A stretch of DNA of 52,989 nt, taken from positions 1 through 52,989 of the forward strand of contig JAAUSE010000003.1 in the NCBI GenBank assembly GCA_012031925.1. Direction: 5' to 3'. Under the pieces are notes generated by a model. The model was not told the origin of the DNA, did not search any database, and was given only the letters and a program-made list of their open reading frames with translations. This document shows positions 4,741-25,084 of this stretch, in pieces. Source of the DNA: Candidatus Altimarinota bacterium (lineage in GTDB: Bacteria; Patescibacteriota; JACMRA01). Position 1 is the first letter of the stretch. Every line of letters begins with the position of its first letter. Both the position numbers and the translations under genes were made by a program.

Positions 4741-4813
4741 CGTGGGATAGCTTAATTGGATAGAGTATCGGATTTTACATCTGGGGGTGTTGGTTCAAGT
4801 CCTTCTCCTGCGA
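4741..4813 (+). tRNA. tRNA-like gene, anticodon ambiguous (UUA or UAC)
   Basis: A cloverleaf can be drawn. Acceptor CGTGGGA pairs with TCCTGCG with two wobbles; the D-arm is GCTT/GAGT with GG in the loop; the anticodon stem TCGGA/TCTGG is fully paired with wobbles. The T-loop TTCAAGT is near canonical, but its stem GTTGG/CCTTC has two T-T mismatches. In the paired register the anticodon loop TTTTACA places UUA at 34-36 with an unusual C37. One base further on gives UAC (Val) with A37, but then the stem does not pair. CCA is not encoded. It has a strong promoter. It may be a degenerate or misread tRNA-Val; identity is unsure. Confidence 0.5.
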
Positions 4814-4876
4814 CTGTTTCTGACAAGCCAAATTCCTCAAATTTATAGCAAATCAATAATTGGTTTGCTTTTTTTA

Positions 4877-21588: not shown

Positions 21589-22196
21589 ATGAAAATTCAA
21601 AAGTTTTTTAGATATTTTGGGTATTTTCAATAATCCTTGCTTTAATCACAAGTGGTTACTTACTTGGAGTTCGTAACAAAATGGACAATCAACCCAATAA
21701 TATAGATACCAGGTCATCAAATAATTACACTCAAAACTCGCTTTCCAAAATCCAAACAAGAGATATTTTTGGGGCAATAAGTCCCAATCAAGTTACAATT
21801 TTTGGACAATTTTATTTTAAGATCGTTGACAACCACACCGAAATTTTGATCAAACTTAACAACATACCAGAAAATGTCAAAACCGATAATCAAAGTAAAC
21901 CAATTCCTAATCAGTTAAAAATTTCCGCTGCTACAAGAGCTATCGATGGGCTAAATTATGAATACATAAGCCTTGGTACAATAAATATGGATGAACCTAT
22001 AAATAATTTGAAATCTGCTACATTTTCCACAACTATAGACCCTATTGAGCTAAATAAACCTGCTCTTGCCTCAGCTGAACGAATTGTTTTTGAACCTCTT
22101 AACGATTCTGAGGCCAATATTTTTAAAGACTCCAATCCTGATTTACCAATCAATGTAAGAGAAAAACCAGCTCCATATTTTTGGATTGTTCTCTAA
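21589..22196 (+). CDS. Membrane-anchored extracytoplasmic protein, unknown (frameshifted)
   Basis: The main frame gives a soluble domain of about 170 residues beginning MDNQPNNIDT, with strand-rich segments (VTIFGQFYFKIVDNHTEILI). Upstream, ATG 21589 opens MKIQKFFRYFG, which shifts frame at GGG 21619-21621. With a fourth G it continues VFSIILALITSGYLLGVRNK into the same frame, adding an N-terminal membrane anchor. No family recognised. It lies downstream of the flavodoxin-fold gene and ends before the RNA genes region. Confidence 0.6.
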
Positions 22197-22235: not shown

Positions 22236-22264
22236 TTGCACAAAAATGTTTTGTAATATATACT
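22236..22264 (+). promoter_or_regulatory. Promoter of RNA A
   Basis: TTGCAC, 17-nt spacer, TATACT. The same -35 and spacing, with TATGCT, precede RNA B at 25085-25113. TSS predicted at about 22271. Confidence 0.7.
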
Positions 22265-22270
22265 ACATAC

Positions 22271-22580
22271 TAGTCATTTAATAATGACTGTTTTATTCAA
22301 CTGACATAGTTTCTGCATTCGTCTAGAATCAGAGCTTACGTCCTGACATACTAAGCACTCGCTAGAAAGATTCTGGTCGAAGTAGAAGAGATGTCAGTCT
22401 TATCAGGCTATGATGTTTAGCTGTTTGTGTTGCCTGTGGCTCGACCACTTCGGTGGAGCGACAAGAAGCCATAGATAAACTAGCCTAACAAAGGGGAAAT
22501 CGACTCAATCTTTTTTACAATGTAAGGAGTTCAGATTCCCCTTTTTCCAACAAATCTCTATATTTTAGAGGTCTTTTTTT
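22271..22580 (+). ncRNA. RNA A: structured non-coding RNA of unknown class
   Basis: About 310 nt with its own promoter and terminator and no supported ORF. A 5-prime hairpin AGTCATT/AATGACT (22272-22289) is followed by domain I: ACTGACAT/ATGTCAGT, then TTCT/AGAA, TTCG/CGAA and AGAATC/GATTCT stacked as an irregular rod over GCTTA/TAAGC. Domain II is GGCTA/TAGCC, GTTTA/TAAAC and a CCAC-TTCG-GTGG tetraloop hairpin. Domain III is AAAGGGGAA(A)TC/GATTCCCCTTT around a loop holding the segment 22514-22528 complementary to RNA C. It lacks RNase P, tmRNA and SRP hallmark sequences that I could recognise. Confidence 0.75.
22554..22580 (+). terminator. Terminator of RNA A
   Basis: ATCTCTA pairs with TAGAGGT (one wobble) around TATTT, then C and seven Ts. 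Confidence 0.8.
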
Positions 22581-22630
22581 ACACTTTTTTAATTTAGCAT
22601 CGAACCTATCCCAATTCTTTTTCATTTTAT

Positions 22631-22659
22631 TTGCCAAAACCTTTTTTTTGTGCTAGTAA
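22631..22659 (+). promoter_or_regulatory. Promoter of RNA C
   Basis: TTGCCA, 17-nt spacer, TAGTAA; TSS expected at about 22666. Confidence 0.5.
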
Positions 22660-22665
22660 AAACCT

Positions 22666-22798
22666 TGCTGTAAAAATAGCGTAGTTCCTTACATTGTAAA
22701 TAGGATAAGGAGCTAACTTTTTTGGTTAGTTCCTGAGTTAGATTTCTTCAAATTGTTAAAGAACTCAACAGTAAGACCCCGAAAGGGGTTTCTTTTTT
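22666..22798 (+). ncRNA. RNA C: short RNA with two alternative hairpins
   Basis: About 130 nt between promoter and terminator, without a convincing ORF. AGTTCCTTA (22683-22691) can pair with TAAGGAGCT (22706-22714). Alternatively GGAGCTAAC (22709-22717) pairs with GTTAGTTCC (22725-22733). The two hairpins share GGAGCT and exclude each other. TCCTTACATTGTAAA (22686-22700) is a perfect complement of a loop in RNA A. A further GAGTT/AACTC stem leads to the terminator. Confidence 0.6.
22776..22798 (+). terminator. Terminator of RNA C
   Basis: ACCCC-GAAA-GGGGT stem with a GNRA loop followed by TTCTTTTTT. The remaining sequence to the gyrB stop at 23026 contains two more inverted repeats (CATTGAGT/ACTCAATG near 22814-22840, and AACCAG/CTGGTT near 22880-22926) but no gene. 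Confidence 0.85.
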
Positions 22799-23025
22799 GA
22801 AATAATCAAAGCTCATTGAGTCAATTTTACTAACTCAATGTATAACCAACATCAAAGTAAGAGTGTGCATAAACATACTTAACCAGTTTCAAGAACTTTT
22901 TTTGTTGCTTTTTTTGAGCTGGTTTTTGGTCAGCTTTTCATTAAACTTGTGATCAATGGAAAACATAAACCATTCCTAAAACAATTAGGATAATCATGCA
23001 AGGAAATTAAACTGAAAAAGTTTTT

Positions 23026-24981
23026 CTAAAGATCAACCTCTGCAAATACCGCATTCTCTTCAATAAATTTTCTCCTTGGCTCCACATCTGCTCCCATAAG
23101 ATCTTCAAAAACATCATTTGCAGCTTGAGCTTCACCAATAGTAACTTGCCAAAGCAAACGGCTAGCTGGATCCATAGTTGTATCCCATAGTTGTTCAGGA
23201 TTCATCTCTCCAAGGCCTTTATAACGCTGTATTTCAAACTTCACATCCTTATCTGGACTAGCAACCCTAACTTTACTTATAACCTCATCTCTACCTTCAT
23301 CAGAATAAACATATTCAAATTTACTTTTTGCCCAAGATACCTTATATAAAGGTGGTCTAGCCATATAAATATACCCACCCTCAATCAAATCAGGCATATA
23401 TCTATACAAAAACGTTAGTAGTAAGGTTGTTATATGAGCTCCATCAACATCAGCATCAGTCATCAAAATTATTTTATGATATCTTAGCTTTTGAACATCA
23501 AACTTATCTCCTATACCAGTACCAAAGGCTATAATCATATTCTTAACACCTTCATAGTTCATAATCCTATCAAGTGTCGCCCTCTCAGTATTGAGAACCT
23601 TTCCACGAAGAGGTAATATTGCCTGAGTTTCTCTATCTCGTCCCTGTTTGGCAGAACCTCCAGCAGAATCTCCCTCCACAATATAAATCTCAGATTTTAC
23701 TGGATCTTTTTCAGAACAATCAGCTAATTTACCAGGAAGAGCCATGCTTTCCATAACTCCTTTTCGCATAACGCTTTCACGAGCAGCTTTAGCAGCAAAT
23801 CGAGCTTTCATTGCAAGCTGAGCCTTAACAACAATTGTTTGCCCAATAGCTGGATTTTCTTCTAAATAAGTTCCAAACCCTTCTGTAACAAGTTTGTAGG
23901 TGTTTTTTCGAGCAACAGTACTACCAAGTTTTACCTTAGATTGAGATGTGAATTGTGGATCAATCATCTTTATAGATAGTACAATCCTAACACCTTCACG
24001 AAGATCATCACTAGTAAATTTTTCATCTTTTTTAAAAAATCCTTTTTGTTGAGCGTAATTATTGATCAAAGCAGTAATTGCAGTCTTCAGGCCGGTCACA
24101 TGCATTCCACCTTCTGGATTGATAATCCCATTAGTAAAAGGAAATAATTTTTCCCTACTATCACTCCCATAAGCAATTGCCATCTCCAGCTCAAAATTCT
24201 TCAATTTTCTTTCAAAATGAATAATTGGAGTAATCAAAGTTTCTTTTTCAGTAAGATCCTCAAGGTATGTCAAAATTCCTAATGGATAACAAAACTCTTC
24301 TTCAATAGACTCTTTCTCAGCAACAAAAACAATTTTAAGACCTTTATTCAAATATGCCATCTGTTTGAGAGATTGTTTTATCTCATCAACATCAAAAGAA
24401 ACTTCTTCAAAAATCTCATAATCTGGCCTAAAACTAATTACCGTGCCAGTCTTATCACCAAGAATATGCTCAACAATTTCAGGGTGTTTCCCTGCCAGCA
24501 GCTCTTTTTCAAATTTGATAAGTTCATTATTGGGTTTTCCTTTGCTAAAACTCATATAGTGAATATTGTCTTCTCGATTAACCCAAACTTCTAACATATC
24601 TGAAAGAGCATTAACCACAGAAGCACCAACACCATGAAGGCCACCAGAAAATTGGTAAGAATCTTGATCAAACTTACCACCAGCATGAAGCACAGTTAAA
24701 ATAGTCTCCAAAGTTGACTTGCCAGTTTTGGGGTGGATATCGGTTGGAATACCTCTACCATCATCAGATACAAGAACAGAACCATCTTTTTTAAGAACAA
24801 CCTTGAGCACTGTTGCATGTCCCGCCATAAACTCATCCACAGAATTATCCAATATCTCTCCAAGACATCTATGAAGACCATCTTTGCCAGTGTTTCCAAT
24901 ATACATTCCAGGACGCTTTCTAACAGCCTCCAAACCTTCTAAGACAGTAATGTTCTCTGCACCATAATTACTCTTTGACAT
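23026..24981 (-). CDS. gyrB: DNA gyrase subunit B
   Basis: ATPase subunit of type II topoisomerase, about 651 residues; the start is MSKSNYGAENITVLEGLEAV at 24981. The GHKL ATPase has EILDNSVDEF, DDGRGIPTDIHP and GGLHGVGASVVNAL. The transducer follows. The TOPRIM domain has IVEGDSAGGSAKQGRD, PLRGKVLNTE and TDADVDGAHI. The C-terminus has QRYKGLGEMNPEQLW and EPRRKFIEENA, which favours GyrB over ParE. gyrA is not in the window. No Shine-Dalgarno sequence. Confidence 0.95.
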   Translation of the reverse strand: MSKSNYGAENITVLEGLEAVRKRPGMYIGNTGKDGLHRCLGEILDNSVDEFMAGHATVLKVVLKKDGSVLVSDDGRGIPTDIHPKTGKSTLETILTVLHAGGKFDQDSYQFSGGLHGVGASVVNALSDMLEVWVNREDNIHYMSFSKGKPNNELIKFEKELLAGKHPEIVEHILGDKTGTVISFRPDYEIFEEVSFDVDEIKQSLKQMAYLNKGLKIVFVAEKESIEEEFCYPLGILTYLEDLTEKETLITPIIHFERKLKNFELEMAIAYGSDSREKLFPFTNGIINPEGGMHVTGLKTAITALINNYAQQKGFFKKDEKFTSDDLREGVRIVLSIKMIDPQFTSQSKVKLGSTVARKNTYKLVTEGFGTYLEENPAIGQTIVVKAQLAMKARFAAKAARESVMRKGVMESMALPGKLADCSEKDPVKSEIYIVEGDSAGGSAKQGRDRETQAILPLRGKVLNTERATLDRIMNYEGVKNMIIAFGTGIGDKFDVQKLRYHKIILMTDADVDGAHITTLLLTFLYRYMPDLIEGGYIYMARPPLYKVSWAKSKFEYVYSDEGRDEVISKVRVASPDKDVKFEIQRYKGLGEMNPEQLWDTTMDPASRLLWQVTIGEAQAANDVFEDLMGADVEPRRKFIEENAVFAEVDL

Positions 24982-25084
24982 ATAAGTCAATAATTACCCA
25001 TAGAAGGGATTCTGTCAAGAAAATTCAAACAAAAAACCATGATTGTTGATAAGTTTTAAATAAACACACAAAATCAAGTCAAAA

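Follow-up and report, generated by a model that had tools for sequence, protein, structure and literature searches.

A 0.8-kb gap between the end of a small-protein gene (22196, +) and gyrB (23026-24990, -) houses two adjacent candidate RNAs, here called A and C, that carry complementary segments. The locus raises the question of whether these are an RNA and its dedicated antagonist or whether the complementarity arose in some other way. The gap lies in what we call the window, the whole 52,989-nt stretch of DNA analyzed here, which is contig 9 of a 1.07-Mb assembly that is 80% complete. The order containing the source genome (G000) is represented here by six genomes (G000 to G005), one per genus. 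TGA is the stop codon of 5/35 ORFs and TAA that of 15/35; because TGA serves as a stop, the genome is not on the SR1 code, in which TGA specifies glycine. ARAGORN reported a tRNA with the anticodon UUA, which would read the stop codon UAA, at 4741-4814 (+) of the window; given its acceptor-stem mismatches and the C at position 37, this tRNA may be decayed or have been folded incorrectly. The gene for the small protein that precedes RNA A (21589-22196, +) shows an apparent frameshift near 21620, such that the N-terminal frame from the ATG at 21589 ends early; relatives have a single frame. This gene had no Pfam match.

The fold of RNA A has a z-score of -4.7, and none of 200 shuffled sequences was as stable. 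In the promoter scan, the site upstream of A matched at 9/12 positions with an alternative -35 element (TTTGCA/TGCACA); this promoter is weaker than those of three relatives from sister genera. The promoters of the relatives (TTGACG-17-TATAAT in G004 and G003 and TTGACA-17-TATAAT in G001, all ~7 nt before the RNA) were read directly as consensus sigma70-type sites, by sequence consensus alone. Coordinates of all features are collected in the table. Within A, the inner pairs of P3 are GU/AC, versus GC/GC in the relatives, and the 3' strand of the pseudoknot (22391-22397) can instead pair with 22301-22307, an alternative that the energy model favors here. A small antisense frame, MKKNWDRFDAKLKKCKKRPLKYRDLLEKGESELLTL (22513-22635, -), faces the RNA A terminators and ends inside the complementary segment; it showed no ribosome site and probably arose by chance.

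Relatives of A were retrieved in 3/5 sister genera (G004, G003, and G001), giving four genera with G000. BLAST matched the 3' domain in two of these, and a covariance model of that domain (R1) added the third. Beyond the order, 374 genomes of the phylum were searched with the model, and none matched (0/374). A motif-based search of the remaining two genera (G002 and G005) gave coding matches or none, and the 11-mer CUAACAAAGGG occurred elsewhere in the order only within apparent coding sequence. Pattern scans of the genome collection returned only two genomes that were already known, and scans of viral contigs returned none. In G004 and G003, a homolog of the same small-protein gene (171-aa "YFWIVL" protein) precedes RNA A, as in G000, and in G001 RNA A lies between ftsK-like and trpS-like genes (named by inspecting translations).

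The four RNAs follow a common plan, in which P2 encloses P3 (loop of 8 to 9 nt), a segment complementary to the P3 loop (the pseudoknot partner) lies just 3' of P2, and P4/P5, CUAACAAAGGG, and a terminator follow. The terminator hairpin is present in all four genera and is of the long-loop type in the relatives. Pseudoknot counterparts were found in each relative (ACUGAUAC/GUAUCAGU in G003, CACCUACA/UGUAGGUG in G001, and CCUCAG/UUGAGG in G004). Changes on both sides of a pair occurred among the four genera at 8/8 pairs of P2, 4/5 pairs of P3, and 5/9 pairs of the pseudoknot, counts to be read as description, not as a formal test, because the helices were hand-picked on four sequences. The pseudoknot strands pair at 30/36 positions with their own partners and at 21 to 23/36 with swapped partners. 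As a separate observation, the 3' arm of the RNA A terminator in G004 (L002 1427-1530, -) carries GTTAGTATCGGGTCTGAC, with a second copy ~80 nt downstream; this sequence resembles a short palindromic repeat, GGGTCTGACCC.

The homologs in three genera, covarying helices, promoters, and terminators agree with the original prediction that A is an independent structured RNA gene, and this comparison marks RNA A as a genuine structured RNA. The covariance search proposed at that time succeeded for A, with relatives found and helices covarying; for C, the sister genomes yielded no homolog by DNA search.

No Rfam family matched the A/C locus at gathering or permissive thresholds. The identification of A as RNase P RNA (RF00010) or tmRNA (RF00023) was rejected: G000 has matches to these models on contigs C40 and C29, and since both genes lie elsewhere in the genome, RNA A is neither. 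These two models match in all six genomes of the order. Models for 6S and SRP RNA (RF00013, RF00169, and RF01854) gave no match in the six genomes and are perhaps too distant for this phylum; on inspection, A was rejected as either RNA, as it has neither the SRP GGAA-loop nor the single long hairpin of 6S RNA. Across 32 further genomes from the phylum, the large SRP model likewise had no match. RNA A contains a 22-codon ATG frame at 22410 (MMFSCLCCLWLDHFGGATRSHR), with no Shine-Dalgarno sequence upstream. This frame is not convincing as a coding sequence: it falls in P4/P5, a covarying domain, and the aligned frames of the relatives do not share its start, its length, or its sequence.

The stand-alone abundant RNAs of bacteria include 6S RNA, Ms1, RNase P, tmRNA, and SRP RNA. 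Like these, RNA A is ~300 nt long, runs from promoter to terminator, and is structured and conserved. Within the open-licence literature, we found nothing on structured RNA families of this reduced-genome phylum or on an RNA like A. RNA A appears to represent an undescribed family that, within the genomes searched, occurs in a single order.

Table. Features of the A/C locus, in window coordinates
Feature	Positions	Strand	Basis or remark
Promoter-like site of RNA A, TTGCAC-17-TATACT	22236-22264	+	-10 good, -35 poor
RNA A, conserved and structured, about 300 nt	22271-22580	+	Fold z-score, homologs
RNA A 5' hairpin P1, 7 bp	22272-22289	+	7-bp hairpin at the 5' end in G004 too
RNA A helix P2, 22323-22330 with 22369-22376	22323-22376	+	Covariation
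RNA A hairpin P3: pyrimidine bulge, two inner pairs, pseudoknot loop	22334-22356	+	Covariation
RNA A pseudoknot: loop 22343-22349 (CUGACAU) with 22391-22397 (AUGUCAG)	22343-22397	+	Counterparts in relatives
RNA A 3' domain: P4 (22406-22410/22481-22485), P5 (22434-22440/22468-22474), CGACAA bulge	22406-22485	+	Covariance model R1
RNA A motif CUAACAAAGGG	22485-22495	+	Identical in four genera
RNA A stretch collinearly complementary to C, 43 nt, 41 bp	22486-22528	+	Cofold
RNA A first terminator-like hairpin, GGGGAAAUC...GAUUCCCC, U-run	22493-22546	+	Complementary segment in loop
RNA A second terminator-like hairpin, then T7	22554-22580	+	Fold
Putative RNA C; closing stem 22664-22671/22768-22775	22655-22800	+	Fold
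C block 1, partner of A 22508-22528, 20/21 including one G-U	22686-22706	+	Cofold
C hairpin looped out between the blocks, 27 nt	22707-22733	+	Cofold, fold
C block 2, partner of A 22486-22507: 21 bp with three G-U, a bulge, and a small internal loop	22734-22758	+	Cofold
Intrinsic terminator of C, 7-bp stem, T6	22774-22797	+	Good
Terminator-like hairpin of convergent gyrB	22814-22840	-	Terminator scan

The case for C is of a different kind. C folds with a z-score of -3.3 relative to shuffles into a three-way structure with an 8-bp closing stem and an 11-bp hairpin, and it contains no noteworthy reading frame. Its promoter is weak, and the promoter scan found none passing for C. The original prediction had assigned a promoter and a terminator to each RNA; this holds for A (a good -10 element here, and promoters and terminators in the relatives) and for the terminator of C, but not for the promoter of C. 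It had also proposed that binding of A would switch C between two alternative hairpins. Both hairpins exist (22683-22714 and 22709-22733), but C folded alone already favors the second over the first (-39.5 versus -35.2 kcal/mol), so an A-triggered switch is not needed. The DNA search of the five sister genomes returned only terminator-length scraps for C, and C was absent from the regions downstream of gyrB read in four relatives. Fold stability, the terminator, and the complementarity with A are the features that mark C as a putative independent gene.

The extended A-C complementarity exceeds chance. TTTACAATGTAAGGA at 22514-22528 (+) has an exact 15-nt complement at 22686-22700, as originally described, and a search for TTACAWTGTAAGGA with at most one mismatch found just these two places in the 1.07-Mb assembly. 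No other exact inverted repeat of at least 13 nt occurs in the window (loop of 20 to 600 nt). An exact 15-nt repeat arose in 2/2,000 dinucleotide shuffles of the 530-nt region and in 3/30 shuffles of the whole window; the 15-mer alone is thus only a mild surprise when a whole window has been scanned. Its 21-nt extension, with 19 identical positions, was reached in 0/400 shuffles of the region. The complementarity is real, and the predicted pairing is stronger and longer than in the original prediction, which missed a second block (22486-22507 with 22734-22758); the pairs of this block are UAACAA/UUGUUA, GGGGAAAUC/GAUUUCUUC, and GACUCA/UGAGUU (A/C). The full 41-bp helix needs the C hairpin at 22707-22733 to be looped out, leaving 22686-22706 and 22734-22758 of C to pair. 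Since 4/5 substituted positions form G-U, the pairing is kept, which is a weak hint of constraint at the RNA level.

Energy calculations likewise set C apart. In an interaction scan of the window (90-nt stretches, both strands), the gain at C was -34.6 kcal/mol, compared with a mean of -5.6 (standard deviation, 3.2) over 7,055 stretches, and the best window site besides C and A's own antisense strand reached -22.5 kcal/mol. Block 2 alone gave -16.0 kcal/mol, bettered by few other window sites. Cofolding A with C gained 19.6 kcal/mol, versus 5.3 (standard deviation, 2.2) with shuffled C. When 22271-22800 was folded as one RNA, the A-C helix was part of the minimum-energy structure, which lay 24 kcal/mol below the separate folds. 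No outstanding complementary partner was found within 600 nt downstream of the RNA A relatives; pairing is therefore no part of what conserves A.

The reading that we favor, and hold tentatively at somewhat under half of our confidence, is that A is a stand-alone pseudoknotted noncoding RNA of an undescribed family and that C is a lineage-specific, same-strand, antisense-type antagonist of the A 3' end. C, at about 22655-22800, would be made beside A as a separate RNA from the same strand and would pair over 41 bp with the terminator hairpin of A (5' arm and loop) and with the conserved CUAACAAAGGGG motif. Because C covers the motif, the 5' arm, and the loop, the duplex would open the 3' hairpin of A. 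Acting in trans, C may mask the motif or make A a substrate for duplex-specific or 3' decay; if A is read through, the same helix would form in the joint transcript, with C as a 3' appendage. Separate transcription of C, formation of the duplex in cells, and antagonism of A by C are steps that we infer. C would most simply have originated by inverted duplication of the A tail with a later insertion, and as such an origin accounts for the complementarity, function needs separate proof.

That origin also feeds a competing explanation that is quite possible, if on the doubtful side, in which C is not a separate gene but a remnant of an inverted duplication of the A 3' end that later took up a 27-nt insertion. 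If transcribed at all, C would then be reached only by read-through from A, would fold back in cis as a long-range helix, and would serve at most as a third terminator or a 3' stabilizer. The reverse complement of C does resemble a 43-nt stretch of A, apart from small gaps and an insertion, the joint fold contains the A-C helix at the energy given above, the C promoter is weak, and relatives are without C. However, two terminator-like hairpins separate A from C, the pairing has been kept as G-U at most substitutions (4/5), and C has a closing stem and three-way fold of its own. We regard as unlikely a chance complementarity of A/T-rich noncoding stretches, in which A would be a real RNA and C meaningless to it. 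From the frequency of a 15-mer in window shuffles, one or two would be expected in a megabase genome, and the core TTACAWTGTAA is nearly palindromic; chance would nonetheless have to supply a second collinear block that is itself among the best window sites, an interaction gain that sets C well apart from the rest of the window, and a 19/21 match that 400 shuffles never reached.

The same core, an 11-nt imperfect palindrome present in both A and C, could instead be a DNA operator with two regulator sites, the RNA complementarity being incidental. We consider this very unlikely, as the match grows asymmetrically to 21 nt and is carried on by the second block, the genome has no third copy of the longer site, and the copy in A sits within a terminator loop rather than at a promoter. 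Terminal repeats of a mobile element were rejected as well, the complementary arms being without flanking target duplication and the A loops of the relatives being of similar length with no insertion. The least probable explanation, to which we give hardly any weight, is a type I toxin-antitoxin-like pair, in which one RNA would encode a small peptide and the other would be the antitoxin. In several type I pairs, adjoining small RNAs share about 20 nt of complementarity, a layout that A and C reproduce, and A contains the ATG frame at 22410. That frame, however, has no Shine-Dalgarno sequence, lies in a covarying domain, and is not kept in relatives, and C offers no noteworthy frame. The adjacent type I antisense pair istR/tisB resembles A/C in its neighboring RNA genes and in a complementarity of about 20 nt or more; unlike istR/tisB, A and C are without a toxin-like frame with a ribosome site.

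Described antagonist RNAs provide parallels for the favored role of C as an antagonist of A. In Campylobacter jejuni, the sRNA CJnc190 has a neighboring base-pairing antagonist RNA, CJnc180, the two being cis-encoded antisense to each other (PMC8687705). An adjacent antisense antagonist is the role proposed here for C. The two systems differ in that A and C lie side by side on the same strand with the pairing split into two blocks, whereas CJnc190 and CJnc180 are cis-antisense; in addition, A/C is known from sequence alone, without an assigned target or RNase III processing. In Caulobacter, CrfA and SisA-D provide a case of an RNA sponge, Hfq associated and shown experimentally (PMC12559287). 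The likeness lies in one noncoding RNA sequestering another by base pairing, with C being putative and read from the DNA. CJnc190/CJnc180 and sponge RNAs work in the manner proposed for A and C, which are a candidate sRNA-antagonist pair.

Taken together as a broader proposal, A would found a new class of pseudoknotted RNAs with an invariant CUAACAAAGGG tail motif and a conserved job in one order, and in this genus a dedicated adjoining antisense RNA would unfold the A 3' end; we put this forward as a possibility, with slightly more reserve than the favored reading itself. A covarying pseudoknotted RNA that persists in ~1-Mb genomes likely does something worth keeping. The fixed motif and the proposed partner C offer a concrete starting point, in that C may mark a part of A that is usefully blocked. 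Should C prove functional, it would represent an antagonist of recent evolution, with an origin (an inverted duplication of its target's tail) that is still legible in the sequence.
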